From positions 81,599-145,598 of the forward strand of contig NZ_LMDU01000002.1 in NCBI RefSeq assembly GCF_001425165.1: a stretch of 64,000 bases of DNA. The letters are read 5' to 3'. The first letter of the stretch is position 1. Each line of letters starts with the position of its first letter. The stretch comes from Pelomonas sp. Root405 (lineage in GTDB: Bacteria > Pseudomonadota > Gammaproteobacteria > Burkholderiales > Burkholderiaceae_C). The notes under the pieces were generated by a model, which was not told the DNA's origin, did not search any database, and saw only the letters and a program-made list of their open reading frames with translations. A program made the translations under genes and the position numbers. Of the stretch, positions 30,339 to 64,000 are shown piece by piece.

Positions 30339-31409
30339 ATGGCAGCTCACTCCACCGCCGCGACCCGGCATTGCACAACCCTGTCACTGGCCGCGGGCCT
30401 GGCGCTCGCTGCGGGCCCGGCCGCGGCGAACACCGTCGTGTACGACAGCTTCGACACGCCCGCCTACTCGCTGGCCGGCTACGGTGCCAAATGGGCCAAC
30501 CCCTACGGCCTGGGTGAAATGGCCATCAGCGACACGCGCAATTTCCTGGGCGGCAACTTCGCCATCAAGGCGCCGGTGTTCCAGACGGGTTTCGACTTCA
30601 GCGTCTACGACCACCTCAAGTACATCGCCACCAGCACGCAAAGCTTCGCGGTGCCGGTCGGCGGCTCGCTGACCTTCTCTTCCACCATCACCGCCACGGC
30701 CCACAACACCCAGGCGGCCGGGCGCATCATCAATGGCACCTACATCCAGAGCGGCCTGCCCTACTCGGCACTCGCGCTGGAAGGCCAGCAGGCCGGCGCC
30801 GTGATGAACATGATCGACTTCTCCACCGGCCAGTTGTTCGACTGGTTCATCTCGGGCTCGACCGCCTTCACGCTGATCGAGCGCCTGCCATCGGCCGTCA
30901 CCAACCCGGCTCTGCTGCCCAGCGACCCGAACTACGTCGGCATGGACAAGATGTACACGCAGATCATCAACCAGATCGACATCGGGCCCGGCCCGCACGT
31001 CGCGTCCATCACCTACAGCGACGCCGGCAGCGTCAGCTACTTTCTCGACGGCAAGCTGGTGTCCCAGGTCGACAACGTCGGCATCCCGCTCGACAAGCAG
31101 GCCGGCGCGGCCTGGTCGGGCATCTACCCGTCCTACGGCCCGGGCGAGAACCTGGCCGGCAAGGTCCGCAACCTGACCATCGGCCACGGCCTGTTCAGCC
31201 TGCTCGACGCCTACCCCTTCCAGCACCCCGAGCGGCCCGACCTGGCCGTCTCCATCCCGATGTCCGAGCGCCTGTTTGGCCAAGGCATGGACGCCACCTT
31301 CGACGACTTCACCGTCACGGCCGTGCCCGAGCCACAGAGCTGGGCGCTGCTGATGGCCGGGCTGTTGGTCGGCATTGCCGCGCAGCGCAGGCGCGTGCCG
31401 CGGCGCTGA
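30339..31409 (+). CDS. PEP-CTERM sorted protein, DUF6081-like
   Basis: A 356-residue secreted protein. The start is ATG 30339 because aagggg precedes it and the signal peptide follows (SLAAGLALAAGPAAA). The mature part, starting VVYDSFDTPAYS and containing GLGEMAISDTRNF and DHLKYIATSTQSFAVP, resembles the lectin-like DUF6081 family as I remember it. The C-terminus carries VPEPQSWALLMAGLLVGIAA and basic RRR, the exosortase sorting signal. It has a 248-bp upstream region and no operon partner. Confidence 0.85.
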   Translation: MAAHSTAATRHCTTLSLAAGLALAAGPAAANTVVYDSFDTPAYSLAGYGAKWANPYGLGEMAISDTRNFLGGNFAIKAPVFQTGFDFSVYDHLKYIATSTQSFAVPVGGSLTFSSTITATAHNTQAAGRIINGTYIQSGLPYSALALEGQQAGAVMNMIDFSTGQLFDWFISGSTAFTLIERLPSAVTNPALLPSDPNYVGMDKMYTQIINQIDIGPGPHVASITYSDAGSVSYFLDGKLVSQVDNVGIPLDKQAGAAWSGIYPSYGPGENLAGKVRNLTIGHGLFSLLDAYPFQHPERPDLAVSIPMSERLFGQGMDATFDDFTVTAVPEPQSWALLMAGLLVGIAAQRRRVPRR

Positions 31410-43229: not shown

Positions 43230-43248
43230 TAAGAAAAAGGGAGACAAG

Positions 43249-46565: not shown

Positions 46566-47339
46566 ATGTCTGCATTTGCCAGCCTGGCCGGTCATCGCGT
46601 CTTGATCACCGCCGCGGCCAGCGGCATCGGGCGCGCCAGCGCCCTCGCCTGCCTGGGCGCCGGCGCTGACGTCATTGCCACCGACATTGATGCCGACGGC
46701 CTGCGCACGCTTGAGCATGAAGCCGGCAGCGCCGCACGCCTGCGCACGGCGCGGCTGGACGTTCGGGACAGCGTGGCCGTCAACGCGCTCGCGACCGAGC
46801 TGCCCCCGCTGCACGGCCTGTTCAACTGCGCCGGCTTCGTGCACCACGGCAGCGTGCTGGACTGCGACGAGGCGGCCTGGGACTTCAGCATGGACCTCAA
46901 CGTGAAGAGCATGCTGCGCACGCTGCGCGCCTTCCTGCCCGGCATGCTGGACCAGGCACAGCGCATGGGCGGCAGCGCCTCGGTGCTCAACATGGCGTCC
47001 ATGGCCTCGTCGGTGAAGGGCTTTCCGAACCGCTTCGCCTATGGCACGACCAAGGCTGCCGTCATCGGCCTGAGCAAGGCCGTGGCGGCCGATTACGTCA
47101 AGCAGGGGCTGCGCTGCAATGCGCTGTGCCCCGGTACGGTCGACACCCCGTCGCTGCGCGGCCGCATCGCCGCTGCCGCCGACCCGGTGCAGGCCGAGAA
47201 GGACTTCATCGCCCGCCAGCCGATGGGCCGGCTGGCGACGGTGGACGACATCGCGCCGCTCGTCGTCTTCCTGCTCAGCGACGCCTCGCGTTTTATCACC
47301 GGCCAGGCGATCAGCGTGGACGGTGGCGTCACCATCTGA
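46566..47339 (+). CDS. Short-chain dehydrogenase, probable 2-keto-3-deoxy-L-fuconate dehydrogenase
   Basis: A 257-residue SDR with cofactor loop TAAASGIGRA (15-24), active-site Ser145, Tyr159 and Lys163 (YGTTK), and the block NCAGFVHHGSVLDCDEAAWDFS found in DHRS6/BDH2-like enzymes. In the Xanthomonas non-phosphorylated L-fucose route a similar SDR oxidises 2-keto-3-deoxy-L-fuconate to the 2,4-diketo acid. The next two genes encode the hydrolase and the dehydratase of the same route, which fixes the assignment. It is the first gene of the operon, behind two operator-like sites. Confidence 0.85.
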   Translation: MSAFASLAGHRVLITAAASGIGRASALACLGAGADVIATDIDADGLRTLEHEAGSAARLRTARLDVRDSVAVNALATELPPLHGLFNCAGFVHHGSVLDCDEAAWDFSMDLNVKSMLRTLRAFLPGMLDQAQRMGGSASVLNMASMASSVKGFPNRFAYGTTKAAVIGLSKAVAADYVKQGLRCNALCPGTVDTPSLRGRIAAAADPVQAEKDFIARQPMGRLATVDDIAPLVVFLLSDASRFITGQAISVDGGVTI

Positions 47340-47372
47340 CATCACCCCAGCCTTCAACCAGAACCACTGCCC

Positions 47373-48227
47373 ATGAAACTCCTCCGCTACGGCCCCGCGG
47401 GCCAGGAACGCCCCGGCCTGCTCGACAACGACGGCCGCGTGCGCGACCTCTCTGCCCATGTCGACGACGTGGCCGGCCACACGCTGACGCCCGAAGGCCT
47501 TGCCAAGCTGCGCGGCATCGACCCGGGCACGCTACCGCTGGTGGACGGCACCCCGCAGCAGGACCTTCGCCTGGGGCCCTGCGTCGGCCGCGTCGGCAAG
47601 TTCATCTGCATCGGCCTGAACTACGCCGACCATGCCGCCGAGTCCGGCCTGCCGGTGCCGACCGAGCCGGTCGTCTTCGCCAAGTGGACCAGCGCCATCT
47701 GCGGCCCCGACGACGACGTGCAGATCCCGCGCGGCTCGGTCAAGACCGACTGGGAAGTAGAGCTGGGCGTCGTCATCGGCCAGGGCGGCGCCTACATCGA
47801 GGAAGCCGATGCGATGAAGCACGTGGCCGGCTACTGCGTCGTCAACGACGTGTCCGAGCGCGAATGGCAGCTGGAGCGCGGCACGCAGTGGGACAAGGGC
47901 AAGGGCTGCGACACCTTCGGCCCCATCGGCCCCTGGCTGGTCACGGCGGACGAGGTGGCCGACCCGCAGCAGCTCGGCCTCTGGCTGGAAGTCGACGGCA
48001 AGCGCTTCCAGAACGGCAACACGCGCACGATGGTGTTCAACGTGGCGCAGATCGTCAGCTACCTCAGCAAGTTCATGAGCCTGCAACCCGGCGACGTCAT
48101 CTCAACCGGCACGCCGCCCGGCGTCGGCCTGGGCCAGAAGCCGCCGCTTTACCTGAAGCCCGGCCAGACGATGCGCCTGGGCATCGAGGGCCTGGGCGTC
48201 CAGACGCAAAAGACCGTTGCCGCCTGA
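47373..48227 (+). CDS. Fumarylacetoacetate-hydrolase-fold enzyme, probable 2,4-diketo-3-deoxy-L-fuconate hydrolase
   Basis: A 284-residue FAH-superfamily protein. The metal site is visible in TDWEVELGVVIG (two Glu) and in the upstream region with YADHAAESGLP and VVFAKWTSAICGP; the C-terminal part has DVISTGTPPGVGLGQKPP. In the L-fucose route this enzyme cleaves 2,4-diketo-3-deoxy-L-fuconate to pyruvate and L-lactate. The family also holds other acylpyruvate hydrolases, so the function rests on its position between SDR (33 bp) and L-fuconate dehydratase (7 bp). Confidence 0.86.
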   Translation: MKLLRYGPAGQERPGLLDNDGRVRDLSAHVDDVAGHTLTPEGLAKLRGIDPGTLPLVDGTPQQDLRLGPCVGRVGKFICIGLNYADHAAESGLPVPTEPVVFAKWTSAICGPDDDVQIPRGSVKTDWEVELGVVIGQGGAYIEEADAMKHVAGYCVVNDVSEREWQLERGTQWDKGKGCDTFGPIGPWLVTADEVADPQQLGLWLEVDGKRFQNGNTRTMVFNVAQIVSYLSKFMSLQPGDVISTGTPPGVGLGQKPPLYLKPGQTMRLGIEGLGVQTQKTVAA

Positions 48228-48234
48228 CTGAGCC

Positions 48235-49512
48235 ATGACACGCATCACCAGCCTGCGCACGGTCGACGTGCGCTTTCCCACGTCCCAGCACCTCGACGGC
48301 TCGGACGCGATGAACCCCGACCCCGACTACTCGGCCGCCTACGTCATCCTGGAGACCGACCAGCCGGGATTGGAAGGCCACGGCCTGACCTTCACCATCG
48401 GCCGTGGCAACGACATCTGCTGCAAGGCCATCGAGTCCATGCGCCACCTGGTCGTCGGCCTGGAGCTGAGCTGGATCGCCGCCGACATGGGCCGCTTCTG
48501 GCGCCATGTCACATCGGACAGCCAGCTGCGCTGGATCGGCCCGGACAAGGGCGCCATCCACCTGGCGACCGGCGCCGTCGTCAACGCCGTGTGGGACCTG
48601 TGGGCCAAGGCCGAGGGCAAGCCGGTGTGGCAGCTGGTGGCCGACATGACCCCGGCGGAGCTGGTGCGCTGCATCGACTTCCGCTACATCACCGACTGCA
48701 TCACGCCGGATGAAGCACTCGCGTTGCTGACCCGTGCCGCCGAAGGCAAGGCCGAGCGCCTGGCCACGCTCAAGCGCGAAGGCTACCCCTGCTACACGAC
48801 CTCCGCCGGCTGGCTGGGCTACCCCGACGACAAGCTGCGCCGCCTGTGCCAGGAGGCCGTCGACGCGGGCTTCAACCACGTCAAGCTGAAGGTCGGCCGT
48901 GACCGCGAGGACGACATCCGCCGGCTGCGCATTGCCCGCGAGGTGCTGGGGCCCGACCGCAAGCTGATGATCGATGCCAACCAGGTCTGGGACGTGCCCG
49001 TCGCCATCGACTGGCTGAAAGACCTGGCCTTCGCGAAGCCCTGGTTCATCGAGGAGCCGACCAGCCCCGACGACGTCGAAGGCCACCGCGCCATCCGGGA
49101 AGCTGTTCAGCCCATGCAGGTCGCCACCGGCGAGATGTGCCAGAACCGCATCATCTTCAAGCAGTTCATGATGCGCGGCGCCATCGACGTGGTGCAGATC
49201 GACAGCTGCCGGCTGGGCGGCGTCAACGAGATCCTGGCCGTCATGCTGATGGCCGCCAAGCTGGGCCTGCCCGTCTGCCCGCACGCCGGCGGCGTGGGAC
49301 TGTGCGAGTACGTGCAGCACCTGTCGATGATCGACTACCTGTGCATCGCCGGCACGCGCGAGGGCCGGGTCATCGAGTACGTCGACCACCTGCACGAGCA
49401 CTTCGTCGACCCGTGTGTGGTGCGTGGTGCAGCCTATATGCCGCCGACCGCGCCGGGTTTCTCGATCACGATGAAAGCCGAGTCGCTGGCGCAGTACCGC
49501 CACGAGGCCTGA
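48235..49512 (+). CDS. L-fuconate dehydratase (enolase superfamily)
   Basis: A 425-residue enzyme that dehydrates L-fuconate to 2-keto-3-deoxy-L-fuconate. The active site of the fuconate dehydratase subgroup is complete: Lys217-x-Lys219 (VKLKVG), metal ligands Asp247 (IDANQVWD), Glu273 or Glu274 (EEPTSPDD) and Glu300 (ATGEMCQN), and general acid His350 (CPHAGGVGLCEYVQH). The length and motif spacing match the characterised Xanthomonas enzyme and human ENOSF1 as I know them. It is the last gene of the fuc operon. Upstream steps (fucose dehydrogenase, lactonase, permease) are not in this window. Confidence 0.92.
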   Translation: MTRITSLRTVDVRFPTSQHLDGSDAMNPDPDYSAAYVILETDQPGLEGHGLTFTIGRGNDICCKAIESMRHLVVGLELSWIAADMGRFWRHVTSDSQLRWIGPDKGAIHLATGAVVNAVWDLWAKAEGKPVWQLVADMTPAELVRCIDFRYITDCITPDEALALLTRAAEGKAERLATLKREGYPCYTTSAGWLGYPDDKLRRLCQEAVDAGFNHVKLKVGRDREDDIRRLRIAREVLGPDRKLMIDANQVWDVPVAIDWLKDLAFAKPWFIEEPTSPDDVEGHRAIREAVQPMQVATGEMCQNRIIFKQFMMRGAIDVVQIDSCRLGGVNEILAVMLMAAKLGLPVCPHAGGVGLCEYVQHLSMIDYLCIAGTREGRVIEYVDHLHEHFVDPCVVRGAAYMPPTAPGFSITMKAESLAQYRHEA

Positions 49513-49549
49513 GATTTCTGGTCGTCGTCCATCCGGTAGGTGTTTTTAC

Positions 49550-49560
49550 TGGTAAGACCG
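49550..49560. promoter_or_regulatory. Candidate GntR/FCD operator, distal site of the PEP-CTERM gene
   Basis: TGGTAAGACCg, identical over TGGTAAGACC to the second copy 31 bp downstream. The surrounding context actggtaagacc is also repeated. Confidence 0.65.
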
Positions 49561-49580
49561 AAAGTGGTTGTTCGCGATAC

Positions 49581-49591
49581 TGGTAAGACCA
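49581..49591. promoter_or_regulatory. Candidate GntR/FCD operator, proximal site of the PEP-CTERM gene
   Basis: A perfect TGGT-N3-ACCA match (TGGTAAGACCA), flanked by GCGATA and TATCGC that extend the dyad. The centre-to-centre distance to the first copy is 31 bp, three helical turns. It lies 40 bp before ATG 49631. Confidence 0.7.
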
Positions 49592-49630
49592 AATATCGCA
49601 AGCTCAACGCGTGCAACCACCGGAGACGAC

Positions 49631-50389
49631 ATGCTCAACAAGACCAAGCTCACACTGGGTGCGGCCCTCATCGCCGCTTCGCAACTGGCTGCCGCTGACG
49701 TGGCCGAGGTCAAGATTTCAAACCTGACCCTGTCCGTCCAGAACGGCGGATGGTGGGCCTACATCCCGTTCGAGGTGGACTGGACGAGCCCTACCGCCGG
49801 CACCTCGGCGGCGCTGGTCAATCCCAGTTTTGCCGACTCAGCTGGCGGCTGGCATGGCTATGCCCTGACCAGTTCCGCCATGGACGGCGCCCACATCGCG
49901 CAGGCGCAACTGACAGCCAAGACCCCCCAGACCGACATCAACGGCGTGGGCGCCTCAGCCAAGGTTGACGTGAACGGTGGCCAGGCGGGCTGGGCATTCG
50001 CCAAGGTTTTTGACGGCCAGATCCTGGTCAGCGGCAACGCCACCGTGACCGTCAGCTTCACGCTGGACAGCCTCCTCGCGACCGGCAACCAGGCCCAGGC
50101 CAACGCCACCATCGAGTTCTGCAGCACCGACTTCGTCACCGACACCTGCGAGGCTGCAAATTACGCGGAAGCCTTTGTCGACGCCACGTCGCCCGCCTAC
50201 ACCGGTCCTTCCATCCTGACGGCGAGCTGGACCAACCTCAGCAACGACAACACCTGGGCCAAGATGCGCATCGGCCTGACCGCGTCCGCCGACTCGCTCG
50301 CCACCCCCGTGCCCGAGCCCACCACCACCGCCCTGTGGCTGGCTGGCCTGGCCGGCATCGGCGCCATCGCGCGGCGCCGCAAGATCTAA
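49631..50389 (+). CDS. PEP-CTERM sorted extracellular protein in the glycan locus
   Basis: A 252-residue secreted protein. The start is ATG 49631, with ccggag upstream; the signal peptide ends near AAADVAE. The mature part is beta-rich with aromatic stretches (GGWWAYIPFEVDW, GGWHGYAL) and one Cys pair. The C-terminus has VPEPTTTALWLAGLAGIGAIA and RRRK. It lies under two operator-like sites, between the fuc operon and the glycosidase operon, so it is probably made with them and may hold polysaccharide at the cell surface; that role is inference. Confidence 0.85.
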   Translation: MLNKTKLTLGAALIAASQLAAADVAEVKISNLTLSVQNGGWWAYIPFEVDWTSPTAGTSAALVNPSFADSAGGWHGYALTSSAMDGAHIAQAQLTAKTPQTDINGVGASAKVDVNGGQAGWAFAKVFDGQILVSGNATVTVSFTLDSLLATGNQAQANATIEFCSTDFVTDTCEAANYAEAFVDATSPAYTGPSILTASWTNLSNDNTWAKMRIGLTASADSLATPVPEPTTTALWLAGLAGIGAIARRRKI

Positions 50390-50445
50390 CACATCGTTCC
50401 GACGGTCCGCAGCCGCCGCCCACGGGGCGCTGAACGGGCCGGCGC

Positions 50446-50487
50446 AGTCGCGCGGCTTCGCAAGAGGCCGCGCGACTTGGTCTTTTT
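50446..50487 (+). terminator. Strong intrinsic terminator between the PEP-CTERM gene and the glycosidase operon
   Basis: A perfect 11-bp stem agtcgcgcggc/gccgcgcgact (50446-50456 with 50467-50477) followed by tggtcttttt. It ends 32 bases before the GH2 start codon, leaving little room for a separate promoter. Confidence 0.85.
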
Positions 50488-50519
50488 GCAAATCGAATCG
50501 ACAAAGAAGGTGTTCGTCC

Positions 50520-53369
50520 ATGGCCCGCGCCGCATCCCTCCTGTTTCACTGGCTGAACGCCTTGCTGCTGCTGACGCTCACGCTGTCGGTCAACACGGCC
50601 CACGCCGCCGGTCACGAGCGCCTGTCGCTGGACGCCGGCTGGCTCTTCCATGCCGGTGACGTCAAGACGCCACCGATCAAGGGCCATGGCGCCAGCTACC
50701 ACCAGGCTAAGGCCGGCGGCGCGGCCGGGGCCGCCTCGCCAGAGTTCGACGACTCCGGCTGGCGCCGGCTGGACCTGCCGCATGACTGGGCCATCGAGAA
50801 CCCGCTGGACCGCAACGAGAACGCGTCGCAGGGCTACCGCGCCCGCGGCTTCGGCTGGTACCGTCGCTATCTGCAATTGCCCGAGTCCGACCGCGGCCGG
50901 CACATCGAGCTGCAGTTCGACGGCATCGCCACGCACAGCACCGTCTGGGTCAACGGCATCGCCGTCAACCGCAACTTCTCCGGCTACAACGGCCGCGCCA
51001 TCGACATCACGCCCTATGTGCGCTACGGCGAGGACGTGAACAGCATCGCCGTGCGTGTCGACGCCGAGGCCCAGGAGGGCTGGTGGTACGAAGGCGCCGG
51101 CATCTACCGCCACGCCTGGCTGGTCAAGCGCGACAGCCTGCACATTGCCACCGACGGCCTGCACGCCAACCCCGTGCAGCGCAACGGCCGCTGGCTGCTG
51201 CCGGTGGAGGTGCAGGTGCAGAACACCGGCGAGGCGCTGCGTGACGCGGTCGTCGAGCTGCGCGTGACCGGCCCGGACGGCGCGGCCGTCGCTCAAGGGT
51301 CGACGCGGGTGCGCGTGGGCGCCCTCGACAACGCGACGGCCAGGCTGGAGCTGGCCGTGCCGGCGCCCAAGCTGTGGTCGCCGAGTTCGCCCCATCTCTA
51401 CCAGGTCAAGGCGACGCTGCGCCAGGCTGGCAACGGCCCGGTGCGCGAGCTCGACGCCACCAGCCTGAAGACGGGTTTCCGCACGCTGCGCTTCGATGCC
51501 GACAAGGGCTTCTTCCTGAACGGCGAGGCGATGAAGCTGCAAGGCGTCTGCATCCACCAGGACCATGCCGGTGTCGGCGTCGCCGTGCCCACCGCCATCT
51601 GGGAATTCCGCCTGCGCCGCCTGAAGGAAATGGGCGTCAACGCGGTGCGCTTCGCGCACAACGCCGTCGCACCCGAGGTCATGGACCTGACCGACCGCCT
51701 CGGCCTGCTGGTCATGAACGAGAACCGCAATTTCAACGCCAGCCCCGACTACATCGCCCAGCTGGAATGGCTGGTGCGGCGCGACCGCAACCGGCCCAGC
51801 GTCTTCCTGTGGTCGATGTTCAACGAGGAGCCGCTGCAAGGCAGCGAACAGGGCCGCGAGATCGCCCGCCGCATGGTGGCCGCGGTCAAGAAGCTGGACC
51901 CGACGCGCCCGGTCACCGGCGGCATGCACGACGGCATCTTTGCGGAGCGCAATGCGTCGCAGGTGATGGACGTCGTGGGCATCAACTACCAGGTCGGGGG
52001 CTATGACCGCTACCACCGCGAGAACCCGAAGCGCGCCGTGAGCAGCACCGAGGACACCGCCGCCTACATGACGCGAGGCGAATGGAAGAGCGACCGCAAG
52101 GCGCAGGTGCTGGGCAGCTACGACGACGAGCCCTCGTCGTGGGGCCAGACCCACCGCGAAGGCTGGCGCCGGATCGCCGAGCGCCCCTTCATCGCTGGCG
52201 CCTTCGTCTGGAGCGGCTTCGACTATCACGGCGAGCCCACGCCCTTCGAATGGCCGAGCGCCAGCACCTTCTTCGGCGCCATCGACCTCTGCGGCTTCCC
52301 CAAGGCAGCCTTCTACATCCGCCAGGCGCACTGGGTGAAGGACCGCACCGTGATCAAGGTGCTGCCGCACTGGAACTGGGCCGGCAGCGAAGGCAAGCCG
52401 GTGAAGGTGATGGTGGCCAGCAACGCGCCGCGCGTGCGCCTGCTGCTGAACGGCCAGGCCGTCGGCGAGCGTGATGTGGACCGCTACGACATGGTCAGCT
52501 TCGACGTGCCGTTCGCACCCGGCAAGCTGGAGGCCGTGGCGCTGGACGGCACGCGTGAACTCGGCCGCGACGCGGTGGAGACCAGCGGCGAGCCGGCACG
52601 CCTCGTGCTCACGCCGGACCGCAAGGCGCTGGCCGGCGACGGCCGCGATGCGCTGCCGGTGACGGTCAGCGCCGTCGACGCGCAAGGCCGCCCGGTGCCG
52701 ACGACGAACCTGCACGTCAAGTTCGAGGTCAGTGGCGCCGGCAGCCTGATCGGTGTCGGCAACGGCGACCCGAACTCGCACGAGTCCTCCAAGGCGCCGG
52801 AGCGCGCGCTGTTCAACGGCCTGGCCCAGGTCATCCTGCAAAGCCGCCGCGACGGCCAAGGACCGCTGACGCTGCGCGCCAGTGCGCCGGGTGTTCAAGC
52901 CGCCGAGCTGGTGCTGGACGTGCAGGCCGCCGCCCAAGTGCCGGCCCTCGCCGCCGCCGAGGCCGTCAACCGCGTCAGCGGCTGGCGCATCTCGCCGCCG
53001 CAGGCCGAGCGGCCCGACCCGAACCAGGTGCTGGCCGAGACGGACATGAACAGCTGGGGCTGGGGTGACACGCCCATCAAGCAGGTCGCCGAGGCCAACG
53101 CCTGGCGCGCCTACCGCGCCTCCATGCGCCTGCGCGCCGACCGCAACGACGGCCGCGGCCGGCTGGTGTTCGGCGAGATCACCGGCCAAGCCGAGATCTG
53201 GGTCGACGGCGTCAAGATCGGCGAGAAGATGTCGCCCGCCGCCGCGCCGCTGAGCGTGCCCCTGGCCGCCGGCGCCGGCTGGCGCACGCTGACCGTGCTG
53301 GTACGCGCCCAGCCCGGCCAACCCTCGGGCCTGACCGGCCGCGTCTGGATGGAGGCTGCCCCGCGATGA
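50520..53369 (+). CDS. Secreted GH2 glycoside hydrolase (beta-galactosidase type)
   Basis: A 949-residue GH2 enzyme with a signal peptide (1-30). The N-terminal sugar-binding domain has FRARG-like GYRARGFGWYRRYL and GIATHSTVWVNG; the TIM barrel has acid/base Glu436 (FLWSMFNEEP) and probable nucleophile Glu511 (SSTEDTAAY). Beyond about 620 come a DUF4982-like and an Ig-like domain (LIGVGNGDPNSHESS), then a C-terminal jelly-roll extension. The galactose-specific layout suggests beta-galactosidase, perhaps removing galactosyl branches. It is the first gene of a three-gene operon; the next gene overlaps by 4 bp. Confidence 0.88.
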   Translation: MARAASLLFHWLNALLLLTLTLSVNTAHAAGHERLSLDAGWLFHAGDVKTPPIKGHGASYHQAKAGGAAGAASPEFDDSGWRRLDLPHDWAIENPLDRNENASQGYRARGFGWYRRYLQLPESDRGRHIELQFDGIATHSTVWVNGIAVNRNFSGYNGRAIDITPYVRYGEDVNSIAVRVDAEAQEGWWYEGAGIYRHAWLVKRDSLHIATDGLHANPVQRNGRWLLPVEVQVQNTGEALRDAVVELRVTGPDGAAVAQGSTRVRVGALDNATARLELAVPAPKLWSPSSPHLYQVKATLRQAGNGPVRELDATSLKTGFRTLRFDADKGFFLNGEAMKLQGVCIHQDHAGVGVAVPTAIWEFRLRRLKEMGVNAVRFAHNAVAPEVMDLTDRLGLLVMNENRNFNASPDYIAQLEWLVRRDRNRPSVFLWSMFNEEPLQGSEQGREIARRMVAAVKKLDPTRPVTGGMHDGIFAERNASQVMDVVGINYQVGGYDRYHRENPKRAVSSTEDTAAYMTRGEWKSDRKAQVLGSYDDEPSSWGQTHREGWRRIAERPFIAGAFVWSGFDYHGEPTPFEWPSASTFFGAIDLCGFPKAAFYIRQAHWVKDRTVIKVLPHWNWAGSEGKPVKVMVASNAPRVRLLLNGQAVGERDVDRYDMVSFDVPFAPGKLEAVALDGTRELGRDAVETSGEPARLVLTPDRKALAGDGRDALPVTVSAVDAQGRPVPTTNLHVKFEVSGAGSLIGVGNGDPNSHESSKAPERALFNGLAQVILQSRRDGQGPLTLRASAPGVQAAELVLDVQAAAQVPALAAAEAVNRVSGWRISPPQAERPDPNQVLAETDMNSWGWGDTPIKQVAEANAWRAYRASMRLRADRNDGRGRLVFGEITGQAEIWVDGVKIGEKMSPAAAPLSVPLAAGAGWRTLTVLVRAQPGQPSGLTGRVWMEAAPR

Positions 53370-56071: not shown

Positions 56072-56083
56072 CGATCCAACTCC

Positions 56084-57856
56084 ATGCCCAACCCGTTGAT
56101 GACCCATTTCGCGCTGCTGCCCTTGCTGCTGGCGCTGCAATCCTGCAGCCAAGCACCTGTGGCGACCGCGCCCGCCCTGCCCGCCGCCAAACCGGCACCC
56201 GCCGCGCCGGACACCGGCCCCATCCAGCTCAACCAGGTCGGCTACCTGCCGGGCGGCAGCAAATGGGCCGCGCTGCCCGACGTGGCGGCGGACAGTTTTG
56301 CCGTGATCGATGCGGCCACCGGCCGCGAGGTCTGGCGCGGCGCGCTGGCCCCGGCCCAGCGCTGGGAGCCGGCGCAGGAGGCCGTGCGCCTGGCCAACTT
56401 CTCGGCCTGGCGTCAGCCCGGCCGCTACCGGCTGCAGGTCGACGGCCTGCCGTCGTCTGCGCCATTCGACATCGCGCCCGACGCCTATGTCGCGCTGAAC
56501 GCCGCTGCGCTGAAGTTCTTCTACTTCAACCGCGCCGGCATCGCGCTGGACGCGGCCCACGCCGGCGTCTGGGCACGGCCTGCGGGCCACCCGGATGACC
56601 GCGTCCTCGTGCACGCCTCGGCCGCCGGCCCGGGCCGGCCCGAGGGCACGGTGATCTCTGCGCCCAAGGGCTGGTACGACGCCGGCGACTACAACAAGTA
56701 CATCGTCAACAGCGGCATCACCGTCTACACGTTGCTGGCTGCGTGGGAGCATTTCCCCGAGACCTTCCGCACCCAGAAGCTCAACATCCCCGAGAGCGGC
56801 AACGCCGTCCCCGACATCCTCGACGAGGCGCTGTGGAACCTGGAGTGGATGCTGGACATGCAGGACCCCGCCGATGGCGGCGTCTATCACAAGCTCACCG
56901 ACAAGGGCTTCGACGGCATCGTCATGCCGCACCAGGCCAGGAACGACCGCTTCGTCGTCATGAAGGCCACCGCGGCGACGCTCGACTTCGCCGCCGTCAT
57001 GGCCCAGGCCGCCCGCGTGTTCGCACCCTTCGAGGCGCAGCGCCCGGGGCTGTCGGCGCGCTTCCTGGCAGCGTCCAAGCGCGCCTGGGACTGGGCCCAG
57101 GCTCACCCCGCCGTCCTCTACAAGCAGCCCGCCGACATCCACACCGGTGGCTATGACGACAAGCAGGTGTCCGACGAATTCGCCTGGGCCGCGGCCGAGC
57201 TGTTCGTCACGACCCGCGACCAGCGCTACTGGCAGACTTTTCGCAAGATCGCCCCGCCCATCGAGGTGCCGGGCTGGCCCAACGTCGGCGCGCTGGCCTG
57301 GACCACGCTGGCCCAGCACCGCGACCGGCTCGCCGCAGCCGATCGCGCCTGGGTGCAGACGCAGGTCGTCACGCTGGCCGGCAGCTACGCCGCGCGCTGG
57401 GAGGCCTCGCCCTACCGCGTGGCCATGCAGACCGTGGACTTCCACTGGGGCAGCAATGCGGTCGCGCTGAACCAGGCGCTGATGCTGATCCAAGGCTACC
57501 GGCTGGATGGCGAGCGCCGCAAACTGGACGCCGCGCAGGCCGCGCTGGACCTGGTGCTGGGCCGCCACCCCACCGGCTACGCCATGGTGACCGGCTTCGG
57601 CACGCGCTCGCCGCTGCACCCCCACCACCGGCCGTCCGGCGCCATGCCGCAGCATCCCCCGGTGCCCGGCATGATCATGGGCGGCGCGAACCCGAGCAAC
57701 GGCGACGACTGCAAGATGCCCTACCCGTCCAAGGCGCCGGCCAAGTTCTTCCAGGACGACTTCTGCAGCTACACCACGAACGAGATCGCGATCAATTGGA
57801 ACGCGCCCCTGGTGTACGTCACCGCCGCACTGAGCGCATTGACCCCCGCGCCTTAA
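56084..57856 (+). CDS. GH9 family lipoprotein beta-glucanase
   Basis: A 590-residue GH9 enzyme anchored as a lipoprotein (LQSC, Cys21). Residues 45-130 form the CelD-type Ig domain ([15 protein letters not shown]); the catalytic (alpha/alpha)6 domain has the nucleophile-activating pair Asp199 and Asp202 ([11 protein letters not shown]), the conserved [10 protein letters not shown] block, and proton donor Glu567 ([15 protein letters not shown]). GH9 enzymes cleave cellulose or xyloglucan beta-1,4-glucan backbones, and some act as exo-glucosidases or glucosaminidases. It starts 12 bp after the fusion gene. With alpha-xylosidase and galactosidase nearby, a xyloglucan backbone is the likeliest substrate. 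Confidence 0.88.
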
Positions 57857-57941
57857 GGGCATAGAACGGCGCACGGCCGCGCGCGTTCAACAGGTTGTTG
57901 ATGACAGGCGCCGGGACCACTTGAACACACCGGAGACTCTC

Positions 57942-59498
57942 ATGAACGCCATCGCAAACCTGAAGATCGGTGTGCGCCTGACCATCGGCTTCGCGGCGGT
58001 CATCTCGCTGCTGATCATGCTTGCCGCGATCGGCGTGACCAAGATCAGTGCCATCAGTGCCGACACGGAAATCATCCTGCACGACCGCTTCGCCAAGGTG
58101 GAGCTGGCGCAGACGGTGGAGAACGAAGTCAACAAGCAGCTTCGCGCGCTGAGCACGGCGCTGATCGCCACCGACGCCGCCCTGGCGGAGAAGGAACTGG
58201 CGAAGCTGGAAGCCTCGCTGCCCGTCGTGGCGAATGCCATCGACAAGCTGACGGCCAGCGTGCGCGAAGGCCCCGGCCTGGCAGCGCTCAAGGAAGTGGT
58301 GGAAAGCGGCGCCAGGTTCAAGGCGAAGGAGCAGCAGCTGATCGCCTCCATCAAGGGCGGCAGGGCCGAGGAGGCGCGCGCGTTGCTGATCTCCGACGTC
58401 CTGCCGCTCCAGAGCGCCTACCTGATGGCCATCGAGAGCTTCGCGAAGTCGCAGGCCGACAGCATGGAGGAGTTCGGCACCGACGCTGCCGAGCTGGGCA
58501 GCGGCGCCAAGCTGCTGATGGAGGTGCTGTCGCTGATCGCCGTGCTGCTGGCCATCGTGATCGCCTTTTTACTGAAGCGCTCGATCACCTTGCCGATTGC
58601 CGACGCGTTGCGCATCGCCGAGACCGTGGCGGCTGGCGACCTGACCTCCCGCTTCACGGTGAACAGTCGCGATGAGACGGGGCAGCTGCTGACCGCGCTC
58701 GGGTCCATGAACGAGAGCCTCGTCCGCATCGTGCATCAGGTCCGGCTGAGCAGTGACTCCATCGCCACCGGCTCCCACCAGATCGCCAGCGGCGGCGTTG
58801 ACCTGTCGCAGCGCACCGAAGAGCAGGCCTCTAGCCTGCAGGAGACCGCGTCGGCAATGGAAGAGGTCACGACGACGGTCCAGCGCAGCGCCGAGTCGGC
58901 ACGCAACGCCCGGACATTGGCGGCATCCGCCAGCGCAGTCGCCACCAAGGGCGGCGCCGTCGTGGCTGAGGTCGTCGCGACGATGAAGGACATCAGCGCC
59001 AGTTCACACCGGATCGCCGACATCACCGGCGTCATCGACGGCATCGCCTTCCAGACCAACATCCTGGCGCTGAATGCCGCCGTCGAGGCGGCCCGCGCCG
59101 GCGAACAGGGGCGCGGCTTCGCGGTCGTCGCAGGTGAAGTCCGCACGCTGGCGCAGCGCGCCGCGACGGCAGCCCGCGAGATCAAGGTGCTGATCGCGGA
59201 AAGCGTGGGCCGTGTCGAAACCGGATCACGCCTGGTCGCCGGTGCCGGGATGACGATGGACGAGCTGGTGCAGCAGGTTCAGCAGGTGGCCGCGCTGATC
59301 GCGGAGATCAGCACGGCCACCGAGCAGCAGAGCCTTGGCCTGGGCGAGGTGAGCAAGGCGGTGAACCAACTCGACCAGGTGACCCAGCAGAACGCGGCGC
59401 TTGTCGAGGAATCGGCGGCTGCGGCAGGCAGCCTCAGCCACCAGGCCAAGCGCCTGACCGAGCTGGTCGGCGCGTTCAAGCTGAACGACCAGCCCTGA
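57942..59498 (+). CDS. Methyl-accepting chemotaxis protein
   Basis: A 518-residue intact chemoreceptor. The start is ATG 57942, with ggagact upstream; a TTG 21 bases earlier is less likely. TM1 (about 11-31), a four-helix-bundle-type periplasmic domain, TM2 ([14 protein letters not shown]), HAMP, and a signalling domain with [20 protein letters not shown] and methylation helices. There is no C-terminal CheR pentapeptide. It is 85 bp after the GH9 gene and may sense sugars released by the neighbouring enzymes; the ligand is not known. It converges on the minus-strand GH2 gene 18 bp away. Confidence 0.93.
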
Positions 59499-59516
59499 TC
59501 GAAGCGACGACCCCGC

Positions 59517-62375
59517 TCAGTCGAGGTCGATCACCAGGTCCGCTGCGTTCAGACCGTCGCCGGTGGCGCGCAGCGTGGCGCGGCCGGGGCTGCCGGTGGA
59601 CTGCAGGATGACCTGCGCATGTCCGTTGAAGACGCTGCGCTGCCACGGCGCGGCGGCCGTGGTGGTGCGCAGCGTGAGCCAGCGCCGGCCGCCTTGCGCG
59701 TCGTCAAACAGTTTGCGTGTGCCGCCGGCCGGCGTGGCGAAGACGAGGGTCAGCGTGTTGCTGTCGCTCAAGTGCGCTGGGTCGAGGTCGATCACGCCCA
59801 TGCTGTCCTCGCGGCGCGGCGTCATTGCCTTGCCGTTCAGGTAGACCTGCTGGCCGGGCGTGATGTCGCCGACGAACAGCGCCGCGCGGCCCGACGCCGC
59901 AGCCGGGCGCGCAAAGCTGGCCTGCACGACGTTCCAGGCGCCGTCGGCCGGCTGCTTGTCGGCAGGCAGCCAGGCGAAGGGGTCGCGCCAGGCGGCACTG
60001 CCTGTGTCGGTCAGCAGTGCCGCAGCGTCTTCCGGTTTGGCTACAGCCTTCTGGCGCCAGCCGTTGACGGCGGCGTAGCGGTGGAACTCGGCCGGCTTGT
60101 CGGCCTCGTGCGAGCCGGGGTCGCCATTGCCCATGCCGATCAGCCGCGCCGGGCCCGAGGCCTCGAAGCCGATGCGGTGGCCGGCCGTGGGCACGACGCG
60201 GCCCTCGCGGTCGACCACGCTGATGCGCACCACTGCCACATCGTCGCCATCGGCGCGGATGCGCGTACGGTCGGCCGTCAGCCGCACCGCGCTGCCATTG
60301 CCCGTGGTGGCCACGGTCTCAGTGGCGACCAGCTTGCCGGCCTGGTAGCCACGCGCCACCAGGCTGCCCGGCGCATAGGGCACGCGCCATTGCAGGTGGG
60401 CGTAGCGCGCCAGCGGCTTGCGGCCCAGGGACTGGCCGTTCAGCAGCAGCTCGACCTCGTCGGTGTTGGCGTAGACGCGCACGTCGATGGGCTGGCCGTC
60501 GCGGCCGGGCCAGTTCCAGTGCGGCAGCAGATGCACGGTGGGCGCGGTGGTCCAGGCCGTCCGCAGGTAGTGGCCGCTGTCCTTGAGCAGGCCGGTCGTG
60601 TCCATCATGCCGAACTGCGAGGAGACGGCCGGCCAGCCGAAGGGCGTGGTCTCGCCGCGGTAGTCGAAGCCGGTCCAGAAGAACACGCCGGCGATGAAGG
60701 GGCGCTCGGCGTTGTAGCGCCAGGCCTCTTCGATGGACGCGGTCGACGCGCCGCCGGAGCGCTTGTCGTAGGCGGCGATGTGCACGCGCGCCGGGTCGTC
60801 GGTGTAGACGCCGCGCGTGGCGTAGGTCAGGCCTTCCTCGGTGACAACCGTTGCCCGCTCGGGAAAGCGCTTGTGCATCGCATCGATGTCGTGCTGGGCC
60901 TTGTAGTTGAAGCCGAGCACTTCCGAGCCGACCGCGGTGCCTTCAGGGCCACCGGAGCTGGAGGCCGCCAGCGTGACCGGCCGCGTCGGGTCCATGCGCC
61001 TGACGACCGCCTGCATCTCACGCGCCAGACGCGTGCCGACGGCGCTGTTCTCGATGGCCCATTCCTCATTGCCGACCGACCACAGGATGATGGACGGGTG
61101 GTTGCGGCCGCGGCGCACCAGGCGCTCCATCTCGTCGCGGATCTGCGGCGCGGTGCCCATCATGCGGTGCTCGTCGATGACGAGGATGCCCAGGCGGTCG
61201 CAGGCGTCCAGCAGTTCGGGCGTGGCCGGGTGATGGGCCGAGCGGATGGCGTTCACGCCCATCACCTTGAGCATCTTCAACCGCGCCTCGTGCATGCCGT
61301 CGGACAGCGCCACGCCGATGCCGGCATGGTCCTGGTGGTTGTTGACGCCGTGCAGCTTGACGTGGCGGCCGTTGAGGAAGAAGCCGGCGTTGGCGTCGAA
61401 GCGGATCGTGCGGATGCCGAAGGGCGTGTCGTAGCTGTCGACCACGCGGCCGGCTTGCCTGACGTGCGTCGTCAGCTTGTAGAGCTGCGGTGTTTCCAGC
61501 GACCACAGCTGCGGCGCCGTCACGCGGAGCGTCGCGGCCACGTCGATGCTGGTGTCCACGCCCACGCGCCGGGCCGGCACGCTGGCGCGTGCGACGACGC
61601 GGCCAGCGGGGTCGCGCAGCTCATGCTCCAGGCTGAAGGAGGTGGCGGCCTTGCCTTCGTTGCGCACGGTGGTGTCGACGGCCACATCGGCGACGTTGCC
61701 CTTGACCGCGGCGCGCACGAAGGTGCCCCAGTGGCCGACGCGCAGCGGCTCGGTCTGGGTCAGCCAGACATGGCGGTAGATGCCCGCGCCTTCATACCAC
61801 CAGCCTTCCTGCGTGGTGGCGTCCACGCGCATGGCAACGACGTTGCGGCCGCCGTAGTTCAGGTAGTCGCTGATGTCGACGCGAAAGCTCGAATACCCGC
61901 TGGCCTCGCGGTGCAGGTAGTGGCCGTTGACCCAGACCACGCTGTCGCGGAAGACGCCGTCGAACTCCAGCGCGATGCGCTTGCCCTGGGCGGCGGCGGG
62001 GATGTTGAGTTCGCGCCGGTACCAGCCGACGCTGTTCTCCGGGAAGGCCCGGCCGATGGCCTTGGAACCATGCGCCGAACTGCCGCGCGCGTCGAAGGGC
62101 AGCTCCACCGCCCAGTCGTGCGGCAGGTGCAGGCGGCGCCAGGTGCGGTCGTCGAAGTCGGCGCCCGCAGGGCCGTCGCCAAAGCCGGCCTTGGCGAAGA
62201 AGAAGGCCCGCGTGCTGTGGCTGAAGTCCTGCGCCGGGTCTTGCGCGTGGCCCAGTGCAAAGCGCCAGCCGTCGTCGATGCGCGTGCGCTGGCGCGCGCC
62301 GTCGGCAGACGCAGGGCCGCCAGCGATGGCGAGCACCCATATCAAGAACCAGGTAAAGCGGAAAAGTCTCGTCAT
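59517..62375 (-). CDS. Secreted GH2 glycoside hydrolase, second beta-galactosidase type
   Basis: A 952-residue GH2 enzyme with a signal peptide (1-24). Layout as in the gene at 50520: jelly-roll (GWYRRELNIP, VFRDSVVWVNG), TIM barrel with acid/base Glu437 (LWSVGNEEW) and nucleophile Glu513 (VVTEEGLTY), then DUF4982-like and Ig-like domains (LIGMGNGDPGSHEAD) and a C-terminal extension. The two GH2 proteins are paralogues in layout but differ clearly in sequence. It lies 73 bp downstream of the alpha-xylosidase gene on the same strand, so they probably form an operon. Confidence 0.88.
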   Translation of the reverse strand: MTRLFRFTWFLIWVLAIAGGPASADGARQRTRIDDGWRFALGHAQDPAQDFSHSTRAFFFAKAGFGDGPAGADFDDRTWRRLHLPHDWAVELPFDARGSSAHGSKAIGRAFPENSVGWYRRELNIPAAAQGKRIALEFDGVFRDSVVWVNGHYLHREASGYSSFRVDISDYLNYGGRNVVAMRVDATTQEGWWYEGAGIYRHVWLTQTEPLRVGHWGTFVRAAVKGNVADVAVDTTVRNEGKAATSFSLEHELRDPAGRVVARASVPARRVGVDTSIDVAATLRVTAPQLWSLETPQLYKLTTHVRQAGRVVDSYDTPFGIRTIRFDANAGFFLNGRHVKLHGVNNHQDHAGIGVALSDGMHEARLKMLKVMGVNAIRSAHHPATPELLDACDRLGILVIDEHRMMGTAPQIRDEMERLVRRGRNHPSIILWSVGNEEWAIENSAVGTRLAREMQAVVRRMDPTRPVTLAASSSGGPEGTAVGSEVLGFNYKAQHDIDAMHKRFPERATVVTEEGLTYATRGVYTDDPARVHIAAYDKRSGGASTASIEEAWRYNAERPFIAGVFFWTGFDYRGETTPFGWPAVSSQFGMMDTTGLLKDSGHYLRTAWTTAPTVHLLPHWNWPGRDGQPIDVRVYANTDEVELLLNGQSLGRKPLARYAHLQWRVPYAPGSLVARGYQAGKLVATETVATTGNGSAVRLTADRTRIRADGDDVAVVRISVVDREGRVVPTAGHRIGFEASGPARLIGMGNGDPGSHEADKPAEFHRYAAVNGWRQKAVAKPEDAAALLTDTGSAAWRDPFAWLPADKQPADGAWNVVQASFARPAAASGRAALFVGDITPGQQVYLNGKAMTPRREDSMGVIDLDPAHLSDSNTLTLVFATPAGGTRKLFDDAQGGRRWLTLRTTTAAAPWQRSVFNGHAQVILQSTGSPGRATLRATGDGLNAADLVIDLD

Positions 62376-62769
62376 GGCGGCGGTTGAAACGTCCTTGTGA
62401 TCAATGCTGGGATGCCGACCAACGCGGCATCCCTAAGCTCCGTGGGCCTCAGTCGCCCCAGCGCAGCTCACGCCCTTGGCCCAGCACCGGACTGCGCTGG
62501 CCGTCCACGTCCAGTGCCCAGTCGCGCAACGCGCCTTCGGTGACCTCGGCCGTGTACTGCCCACCGCTGCGGCTGACCCTGCCGCGTGCCGCGACGCTGC
62601 CGTCCGGCCCCACGACCGTGAAGCCCGCGCTCTGGCCGTCGGCCAGCTCGAACACGCGCAGCACCGTGCCGCTGGCGTAGTCGTAGTCCGGCTTCTCGGT
62701 CTCGGCGCCCCAGGGGATGACGCTGCCCGGTGCGGCATAGAGCGGCATGCTGAGGAAGCCATGCGTCTC

Positions 62770-62968
62770 CTTGTGCCAGCGCCCACCCGGCTTCTTCTCG
62801 CCGCTGAGCAGGTGGGTCCACGTCCCTTCGGGCAAGTAGAAGTCCACCTCCCCGCTCTCCGTGAACACTCTTGTGCCAGCGCCCACCCGGCTTCTTCTCG
62901 CCGCTGAGCAGGTGGGTCCACGTCCCTTCGGGCAAGTAGAAGTCCACCTCCCCGCTCTCCGTGAACAC
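62770..62968. repeat. Perfect 100-bp tandem duplication in the GH31 gene (frame-breaking)
   Basis: Bases 62770-62869 recur at 62870-62968 with a period of 100 bp. The unit encodes the conserved C-terminal segment FTESGEVDFYLPEGTWTHLL. Because 100 is not a multiple of three, the reading frame changes. Confidence 0.95.
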
Positions 62969-63131
62969 GGGTGCCACCAGCAGGCTTTCGCCGAGCTGGT
63001 ACTGCCGGTCCAGCGGCGCGCAGGCTGGGTCCTGCGGATGCTCGATGAGCATCGCGCGCATCAGCGGCACGCCCGTCTCGGTCGCCTCGTGAGCCTTGGC
63101 GTAGAGATAGGGCATGAGCTGGTGCTTGAGC

Positions 63132-63443
63132 TGCGTGAAGGTGCGCAGCACGTCGCAGCTTTCTTCGTCCACGAGCCATGGCACCCGGTAGCTGCTGCTG
63201 CCGTGCAGGCGGCTGTGCGAGGACATCAGGCCGAACTGGATCCAGCGCTTGTAGACGGCCGGCGGCGGGTTGCCTTCGAAGCCGCCGTGCGTGAAGGTGC
63301 GCAGCACGTCGCAGCTTTCTTCGTCCACGAGCCATGGCACCCGGTAGCTGCTGCTGCCGTGCAGGCGGCTGTGCGAGGACATCAGGCCGAACTGGATCCA
63401 GCGCTTGTAGACGGCCGGCGGCGGGTTGCCTTCGAAGCCGCCG
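63132..63443. repeat. Perfect 156-bp tandem duplication in the GH31 gene (in frame)
   Basis: Bases 63132-63287 are repeated exactly at 63288-63443. The unit encodes 52 residues containing AVYKRWIQFGLMSSHSRLHG, a conserved strand-helix of the GH31 barrel that occurs once in other family members. Confidence 0.95.
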
Positions 63444-64000
63444 ATGTCGTGGCTCCAGAAGGCGAAGCCGCAGGACGTGAGCGACAGGCCGCCTCTCAGG
63501 CTCTCAGCCATGGACTCGAAGGTGCTCCAGCAGTCGCCGCCCCAGTGCACGGGGAAGCGCTGGCCGGAGGCGTAGGTGGAGCGGGCGAAGACGATGGCGT
63601 CCTTGCCCTGCACTTCTTGCAGCAGTTCGAAGACGGCTTCGTTGTATTGCAGCGCGTAGAGGTTGTGCATCTCGACGGGGTCGGAGCCGTCGAAGTAGGT
63701 CACGCCTTCGCTCGGGATGCGCTCGCCGAAGTCGGTCTTGAAGCAGTCAGCGCCTTGCGCGATGAGGCGACGCAGGTGGCTCTGGTACCAGGTCTTGGCG
63801 GCGGGGTTCGTGAAGTCCACGATGGCCATGCCGGGCTGCCACTGGTCGGTCTGGAAGGTCAGGCCGTTGGTTCGCTTGATGAAGTAGCCGTTCTTCACGC
63901 CTTCGGCGAACAGCGGCGACTTCTGCGCCACATACGGGTTGATCCACAAGCTGATCTTCAGGCCCTTGTCGTGCAGCCGCTGGAGCATGGCCTCGGGCTC

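Follow-up and report, generated by a model that had tools for sequence, protein, structure and literature searches.

The DNA analysed here (the window) is a stretch of 64,000 nucleotides, positions 81599-145598 of contig C2 in genome G000 (5.81 Mb, 18 contigs). Its last part, window positions 46566-64000, places enzymes of L-fucose oxidation close to glycosidases of the kind that could act on xyloglucan. The question raised by this locus is whether the two gene groups serve one polysaccharide, and what a GH2 domain fused to a CE4 deacetylase would contribute. In our reading the segment is very probably part of a dispersed xyloglucan-utilisation system of a Roseateles/Pelomonas-type bacterium, in which the GH9, GH2, CE4 and GH31 enzymes would strip fucosylated xyloglucan, and a short-chain dehydrogenase/reductase (SDR), an FAH-fold hydrolase and the dehydratase FucD would burn the L-fucose to pyruvate and lactate. 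A preliminary description of the same DNA had already paired a xyloglucan system with L-fucose oxidation, and the core of that proposal is supported by the BoGH9A-like GH9, the GH31, GH95b and the content of contigs C4 and C14. Such a system is of a known kind, and the assignment is well supported by sequence; the novelty lies in the hexuronidase-CE4 fusion and in a probable L-galactose branch. The features of the locus are as follows.

46566..47339, plus strand: SDR, predicted from context as 2-keto-3-deoxy-L-fuconate dehydrogenase (Pfam adh_short_C2, 180 bits)
47373..48227, plus strand: FAH-fold hydrolase, predicted 2,4-diketo-3-deoxy-L-fuconate hydrolase (NCBIfam, 438 bits; best PDB match 8gsr)
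48235..49512, plus strand: L-fuconate dehydratase FucD, MR/MLE type (2hne/1yey, 555 bits, whole length)
49631..50389, plus strand: PEP-CTERM protein (Pfam PEP-CTERM)
50446..50477, plus strand: terminator-like hairpin with a 14-pair stem (terminator scan)
50520..53369, plus strand: GH2a, beta-galactosidase of GalA type (NCBIfam GalA, 1073 bits, cut-off 900; no NxK)
53366..55399, plus strand: GH2b module of the GH2-CE4 fusion, predicted beta-hexuronidase (NxK signature; best match 8DHE)
55400..56071, plus strand: CE4 deacetylase module of the GH2-CE4 fusion (Pfam PF01522, 86 bits; motifs intact)
56084..57856, plus strand: GH9, predicted endo-xyloglucanase (best PDB match 6dht, BoGH9A, 445 bits)
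57942..59498, plus strand: methyl-accepting chemotaxis protein (MCP) with 4HB, HAMP and MCPsignal domains (domain profile matches)
59517..62375, minus strand: GH2c, beta-galactosidase of GalA type (NCBIfam GalA, 1061 bits, cut-off 900; no NxK)
62449..64000, minus strand: GH31 alpha-xylosidase of YicI type, mis-assembled and extending beyond the window (NCBIfam, 692 bits, cut-off 606)
62770..62968, no strand: 100-base perfect tandem duplication within the GH31 gene, likely an assembly artefact (repeat scan)
63132..63443, no strand: 156-base perfect tandem duplication within the GH31 gene, likely an assembly artefact (repeat scan)

Pfam and NCBIfam profile searches of the window proteins bear out the earlier calls of the SDR, FAH-fold protein, dehydratase, GH2s, fusion, GH9, chemoreceptor and GH31. 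The earlier count of two GH2 genes plus a fusion and a third GH2 opposite was too high, as there are three GH2 genes in total with the fusion included. On the plus strand the GH2a and GH2b reading frames overlap by 4 bases and 12 bases separate the end of the fusion from the GH9 gene. By eye, GH2a has a signal-peptide-like N-terminus and GH9 a lipoprotein-type one.

Xyloglucan-type genes in the window and on other contigs

The best match of the window GH9 in the PDB is 6dht, the xyloglucan-specific BoGH9A of Bacteroides ovatus, with 445 bits against 286 bits for the next structure, and we predict from this similarity that the protein is an endo-xyloglucanase. BoGH9A is its nearest solved relative, although it comes from another phylum, and relatives of the window GH9 can carry a CE4 fusion. 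The GH31 gene is mis-assembled: there is an N just beyond the window end, the C-terminal 139 codons (62449-62868) lie in a different frame, and an intact congener copy (L051:7885-10131) reaches 1128 bits with the model that gives the window protein its 692 bits. A second copy, 96-97% identical, stands at the end of contig C7 with a 99-base repeat around an N and adjoins another GH9 and an AmpG-like major facilitator superfamily (MFS) carrier (131 bits, cut-off 350). Since there are two near-identical copies, the tandem duplications are best read as artefacts; we do not accept the repeats of 100 and 156 bases as genuine parts of the gene, given that both are perfect and that the near-identical C7 copy has its own repeat around an N. 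GH31 copies occupy contig ends in two species, at the C28 start and C29 end in G002 and at the C2 and C7 ends in G000, a hint that assemblies in this genus break where GH31 has near-identical duplicates.

A GH95 or GH29 fucosidase had been predicted to lie beyond the window, and the genome does contain two GH95 genes, both on contig C4, and two GH29 genes. GH95b is nearest to 7kmq (807 bits), followed by 4ufc (578 bits). The former is XacAfc95, a xyloglucan fucosidase of Xanthomonas, and the latter an alpha-L-galactosidase (PMC8245568). The known polymorphic GH95 residue is not decisive for the substrate (PMC8245568), and a search of the GH95 proteins with a GH95 motif pattern gave zero matches and does not separate galactosidase from fucosidase. 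GH95a is nearest to FucOB, not to the xyloglucan enzyme. Contig C4 also carries a TonB receptor (C4:7178-10189, Pfam 126 bits) and GH35 genes at C4:34450 (500.3 bits, at the cut-off of 500) and C4:10243 (482 bits, under that cut-off). It further encodes a ROK regulator and an FGGY kinase, contains two sets of GH35, GDSL and GH95 genes, and has a GH1-MFS fusion, the last being a GH1 glycosidase and an MFS sugar carrier in a single 853-aa frame near GH95/GH35 (L037:15459-18020). A stretch near the C2 end recurs without a mismatch as bases 40-152 of C4. The gene order between TonB receptor and GH31 is shared by congener G005, and in G008 about 6.5 kb separate GH95b from the GH2 genes. On contig C14 a group of genes (L040/L041, C14:558917-589466) encodes GH74-like, GH5, two GH29, GH43, GH97 and PA14-containing GH31 proteins and a SASA esterase. 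This is a third gene group of xyloglucan type and includes a partial GH2c relative (79%).

When these contigs are taken into account, the gene set resembles two described xyloglucan utilisation loci (XyGULs). With that of Xanthomonas citri it shares GH31, GH35, GH95, TonB transporters, an acetylesterase, GH74 and an MFS carrier (PMC8245568), the corresponding parts being spread here over C2, C4, C7 and C14, with an FGGY sugar kinase on C4. The main text of PMC8245568 names no GH2, whereas here we find GH2a, GH2b-CE4, GH2c and a GH9 resembling BoGH9A, accompanied by genes for the catabolism of L-fucose and, probably, L-galactose. The Cellvibrio japonicus XyGUL (PMC4285296) has GH31, GH35, GH95 and a TonB receptor (here on C4) in common with our set, and in the available part of its description no CE4, hexuronidase or fucose-oxidation genes are mentioned. 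The earlier remark that the locus is unlike Cellvibrio in gene content needs revision, as C4 and C14 add GH35, GH95, a TonB receptor, a GH74-like protein and a SASA esterase to the GH31. The pairing of a uronidase with a deacetylase goes unmentioned for the Xanthomonas and Cellvibrio loci in the available parts of PMC8245568 and PMC4285296.

Gene neighbourhoods of GH2b were compared in the best 80 loci of 332 relatives, many of which end early at contig ends, and a neighbour was counted when it had at least 40% identity within the fetched flanks. The 80 loci were split into 14 from Burkholderiales, chosen by record title and GH2b identity, and 66 others, made up of alphaproteobacterial relatives and distant GH2s and including two from Pelomonas (L118, L124). 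In the first group GH2b is accompanied by GH9 in 10 loci, GH2a in 10, GH31 in 7 and CE4 in 6, compared with 0, 1, 0 and 0 of the 66 others. A locus from a metagenome-assembled genome (L076) repeats the whole window order GH2a-GH2b-GH9-MCP-GH2c-GH31, including a chemoreceptor that is 79% identical and equivalently placed. In Brevundimonas (L086) GH2b is joined by genes for an aldo-keto reductase (AKR), a lactonase, a UxaA-type protein, an SDR, an FAH-fold protein, a GH74-like protein, GH29 and SASA, and GH35 occurs in five alphaproteobacterial loci (L087, L089, L092, L093, L094), in some of them together with relatives of GH74-like, GH29 or GH31-like type. Several GH2b hosts bear root strain names (Root1444, Root1217, Root1237, Root343), a hint that is biased by sampling.

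A predicted hexuronidase fused to a CE4 deacetylase

GH2b contains the catalytic residues E418 and E502 together with N573 and K575 (the NxK of positions 573-575), R564 and Y471, a signature that defines a group of GH2 beta-hexuronidases (PMC12243196). NxK, Arg, Tyr and both Glu are kept in 29 of 29 relatives with at least 45% identity and in 31 of 32 of all sequences examined, L097 and L100 being omitted from the count (match too short). In GH2a and GH2c, Ser/Phe and Ser/Gln replace Asn/Lys and Thr replaces Arg, with the Tyr retained in GH2c, and of 46 distant GH2 loci 43 align both Glu, with N and K in 6 of the 43. By sequence as well as by fold the best match of GH2b is 8DHE (36% identity in the fold match, full length), which is the beta-glucuronidase TfGUS mL1 (PMC10162664) of Tannerella forsythia. 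Of the 30 top-ranking chains in the fold search, 26 bear the title beta-glucuronidase and 4, from Bacteroides fragilis, putative beta-galactosidase. GH2b thus has the catalytic Glu pair, NxK, Arg and Tyr in common with TfGUS mL1 and the GH2 beta-glucuronidases; it differs from TfGUS mL1 in its fusion to CE4, its place beside xyloglucan genes and, probably, a galacturonide substrate. Because D-galacturonic acid is the sole uronic acid among the xyloglucan side-chain sugars listed in PMC4844278, which places it in root-hair xyloglucan and notes that a fucosylated form exists, GH2b is likely to be a xyloglucan beta-galacturonidase. Modelled as a whole, the fusion reaches a predicted local distance difference test (pLDDT) value of 74.5 with active-site loops below 50, so the model is uninformative on the active-site pocket.

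A metal triad and five motifs are the hallmark of CE4 enzymes, and in the fused CE4 module the motif residues D41 D42, H92 H96, R130, D160 W161 and H189 D190 are invariant in all 14 aligned sequences; the domain is modelled with pLDDT 91. A CE4 protein search gave 179 matches, and the best 120 of them include 22 GH2 fusions, four GH9 fusions and two SASA esterase fusions. The CE4-fused GH9s are 63-76% identical to the two GH9s of this genome, CE4 preceding GH9 in three of them and following it in one, and the CE4-fused SASA esterases are 37-39% identical to the C14 esterase. The whole GH2b-CE4 fusion was found in 2 of 20 congener genomes, G000 (counted among the 20) and G008. In Aquabacterium, G001, G002 and G005, CE4 has a gene of its own next to GH31, GH2, GH9 and MFS genes. 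For eight of the 13 CE4 genes that stand alone in congeners, a GH9 gene lies on that contig in the same orientation at a distance of no more than about 3 kb (G001, G005, G009, G011, G013, G015, G018, G019). As this type of CE4 is fused elsewhere to a similar GH9 and to a SASA esterase, the module likely deacetylates xyloglucan. The CE4 family is known for acting on xylan, chitin and peptidoglycan, so that xyloglucan, if the prediction is true, would be a new CE4 substrate, and the repeated fusions to xyloglucan-type enzymes make the prediction easily testable.

Each module could have a plainer explanation. The preliminary description implied that the fused GH2 was a beta-galactosidase, and an ordinary enzyme of this type that removes xyloglucan galactose would agree with the database names of several GH2b relatives and with the score of the NCBIfam LacZ4 glucuronidase model (557 bits, under its cut-off of 950). 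We consider it improbable, since the beta-hexuronidase residues hold in every one of the closer relatives, N, K and R are missing from GH2a and GH2c, the N and K pair is rare among comparable distant GH2s, and the fold matches titled beta-glucuronidase prevail. Only slightly less improbable is that the CE4 module deacetylates peptidoglycan or chitin and has no role on xyloglucan. Its nearest folds are mostly peptidoglycan deacetylases, yet the acetylxylan esterase 7fbw is also close, and enzymes of peptidoglycan, chitin and xylan are not told apart by the fold search. Similarly, CE4 occurs without GH2b in congeners G006, G013, G015, G018 and G019, but four of these five are among the genomes where a stand-alone CE4 lies near GH9, and a xyloglucan role is also favoured by the fusion of CE4 to GH2b, to SASA esterase and, in either order, to GH9.

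Predicted catabolism of L-fucose and L-galactose

FucD aligns end to end with the L-fuconate dehydratase 2hne, which we take to come from Xanthomonas, at 555 bits; an unnamed MR/MLE protein, 4ip4, is closer (714 bits). The SDR has 2ag5 and the SDRs 8xwk/8y11 as its best PDB matches, and the roles of the SDR and FAH-fold protein would fit by family and context. An L-rhamnose pathway was considered and rejected: the FAH-fold protein is nearest to a rhamnose enzyme, but the dehydratase reaches just 65 bits with the L-rhamnonate dehydratase model (cut-off 393). For the upper half of the L-fucose pathway the candidates are on C4, where an AKR is nearest to L-galactose dehydrogenases (109 bits) and an Amidohydro_2 protein is nearest to L-fucono-1,5-lactonase, being the only match of this model in the genome at E 1e-10. 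A RhaM-type mutarotase and sugar-transport genes of two ATP-binding cassette (ABC) systems are also found on this contig. The fucose transporter that had been expected beyond the window, and the L-fucose dehydrogenase that was to be sought there, therefore have candidate counterparts at the gene level in the ABC systems and the L-galactose-dehydrogenase-like and lactonase-like proteins, on a separate contig. Compared with L-fucose oxidation in Xanthomonas, the same dehydratase type with SDR and FAH-fold partners is present; here the AKR and lactonase are on another contig, and all assignments except that of FucD are by family and context.

Beside the C4 AKR and lactonase genes are those for a zinc alcohol dehydrogenase, a tagaturonate-reductase-like (UxaB-like) protein and a galactarate/altronate-dehydratase-like protein. 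All enzyme types of an L-galactose route are present on C4, none above its model cut-off, and such a route is probable. The types agree with those of the Luteolibacter lgu and Phocaeicola vulgatus L-galactose pathways (PMC12632266), namely the same dehydrogenase, L-galactonate dehydrogenase, tagaturonate reductase and altronate dehydratase. In contrast to those pathways, the C4 cluster, known here from its genes, adds a lactonase and a mutarotase and lies beside xyloglucan genes. Use of galacturonate through UxaC was rejected, as a model search that matched 7 of 14 control genomes found no UxaC in this genome; KdgD of the oxidative uronate route is present above cut-off.

The fucose genes had been described as lying directly upstream of the GH2 genes. 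The order is correct, with the PEP-CTERM gene and the terminator-like hairpin intervening. The terminator scan found 2 sites against a mean of 6.8 in shuffled sequences, and only the stem length of the hairpin is exceptional. Given these two elements between the dehydratase and GH2a, the fucose genes are probably transcribed on their own, apart from the GH2-GH9 genes. Relatives of the PEP-CTERM protein at 40% identity or more occur in 4 of the 14 Burkholderiales loci, and in several congeners it stays beside FucD or GH2a; Roseateles saccharophilus DSM 654 has the genes in the order fucose-PEP-GH2-GH2-GH9. The protein is a candidate surface binder of xyloglucan.

Among the 20 congeners the UxaB-like protein occurs in eight, and the same eight carry GH95b at 82% identity or more (any GH95b match, 16 of 20) and GH2b at 70% or more; versions at 54-56% occur in G001 and G005, and G002 has one as a second copy. 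FucD is found in nine, these eight and G010, and GH9 at 73% or more in seven of the eight (any match, 17 of 20); the identity cuts were chosen after inspecting the lists. FucD and GH2b are adjacent in three of the eight (G000, G003, G009). In G009 the fucose genes, GH2a, GH2b, transporters, AKR, lactonase and L-galactose-route relatives stand on a single contig (G009:C2:65816-92099), and a GH95b relative lies at 107 kb on it.

Proposed pathway and competing explanations

The pathway that we propose is predicted, in its substrates and in every step, from gene content, signature residues, fusions, synteny and co-occurrence. The lipoprotein-type GH9 would cut the backbone and the oligosaccharides would enter the periplasm through the C4 TonB receptor. 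GH95 would then remove L-fucose (or L-galactose), the CE4 domain the acetyl groups, GH2a, GH2c and GH35 the galactose, and GH2b a uronic acid in beta linkage, which is most likely the galacturonic acid found on acidic side chains of root-hair type. The remaining oligosaccharide might then be imported by the AmpG-like MFS carrier and lose its xylose in the cytoplasm to the YicI-type GH31. L-fucose would be taken up by an ABC system, oxidised by the C4 AKR and lactonase and passed to FucD, the SDR and the FAH-fold hydrolase of the window to give pyruvate and lactate, and L-galactose would share the first two enzymes and continue via tagaturonate and altronate.

Several results weigh against this pathway. 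No NCBIfam model among the matches listed reaches its cut-off for the SDR or the C4 AKR, and three further assignments fall below theirs: the FAH-fold protein (NCBIfam 2,4-didehydro-3-deoxy-L-rhamnonate hydrolase, 438 bits, cut-off 500), the Amidohydro_2 protein (215 bits, cut-off 400) and the AmpG-like carrier (131 bits, cut-off 350). The absence of UxaC means that galacturonate requires another route. Of the assayed GH2_3 members 33 are glucuronidases and two galacturonidases (PMC12243196), and as most assayed NxK GH2s are thus glucuronidases, the preference for a galacturonide is drawn solely from the xyloglucan context. L072, L099 and many alphaproteobacterial GH2b loci have none of the tested window or C4 neighbours (L072 has a GH29). 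The hairpin divides the fucose from the GH2-GH9 genes, FucD adjoins GH2 genes in only 2 of the 14 Burkholderiales loci, and the two are on different contigs in five congeners (G002, G008, G011, G012, G016). The identical 8 of 20 split has p = 8e-6 when the genomes are treated as independent, with kinship uncorrected. Finally, the neighbour of C4 is ambiguous, since the C7 GH31 copy is equally possible and the C2-C4 junction is not unique.

The most serious competitor, though still an unlikely one, is that the fucose genes are a general L-fucose operon and a chance neighbour of the xyloglucan genes. It would account for the hairpin, for the separate contigs of FucD and GH2b in five of the eight congeners having both and for the location of the two GH29 genes elsewhere; it does not account for the adjacency kept in G003 and G009, for the same eight congeners carrying GH95b, GH2b and FucD, or for L086, where SDR, FAH, AKR and lactonase genes adjoin GH2b and a UxaA-type protein replaces FucD. 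A clearly weaker competitor is that the hexuronidase, GH95 and the L-galactose and L-fucose routes are meant for a different acidic glycan that carries fucose, for example rhamnogalacturonan II (RG-II) or arabinogalactan, and merely share the chromosome region. RG-II contains L-galactose, fucose, galacturonic acid and glucuronic acid, which suits these enzymes, and the resemblance of GH95a to FucOB points the same way. Moreover, a GH2 beta-galacturonidase and a beta-glucuronidase of Bacteroides thetaiotaomicron act on RG-II (PMC12243196). Among the gene families compared, the repeated association of GH2b with GH9 and with GH2a (10 Burkholderiales loci of the 14) and with GH31 (7), and with GH74-like, GH29, GH35 or SASA genes in several alphaproteobacterial loci, argues instead for xyloglucan.

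Within the preferred xyloglucan reading we put forward, tentatively and at somewhat less than even confidence, that GH2b-CE4 may be the missing enzyme for acidic xyloglucan. It would be a beta-galacturonidase that acts on root-hair or moss xyloglucan after defucosylation by GH95 and is tied to a CE4 xyloglucan deacetylase, in genomes that would burn the L-fucose and L-galactose caps by separate routes with the first two enzymes in common. Galacturonic acid is present in root-hair xyloglucan (PMC4844278), and a literature search on bacterial xyloglucan galacturonidases, judged by title, named no bacterial enzyme for acidic xyloglucan; within the literature searched on xyloglucan and fuconate the titles concerned only fungi and gut bacteria. 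If the role is true, it would show how root bacteria use the root-hair form of xyloglucan and offer a tool enzyme for mapping acidic xyloglucan.

Some minor observations were made along the way. Scanned at its full 64 kb, the window gave zero Rfam matches at the gathering score and zero tRNA genes. Two tryptophan-halogenase-like flavoproteins are encoded beside the xyloglucan gene groups on C4 (L037:191-1714 and L039:5829-7334), and relatives lie near such groups in congeners and in Sphingobium and Novosphingobium loci. C4 also encodes a 1445-aa protein with LamG, PKD, Ig-like and cytochrome c domains (L039:1495-5832), which is 90% identical in G008 (G008:C27:202529-206872), there between the GH9 and GH2c of the fusion locus. 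Elsewhere in the window, a hybrid histidine kinase with two receiver domains and an Hpt domain adjoins a TonB-dependent receptor (16939-22940), a PEP-CTERM protein contains a DUF6081 domain (30339-31409), and upstream of the locus a 1249-aa TonB-dependent receptor is followed by a Sel1-repeat protein (39480-44778).

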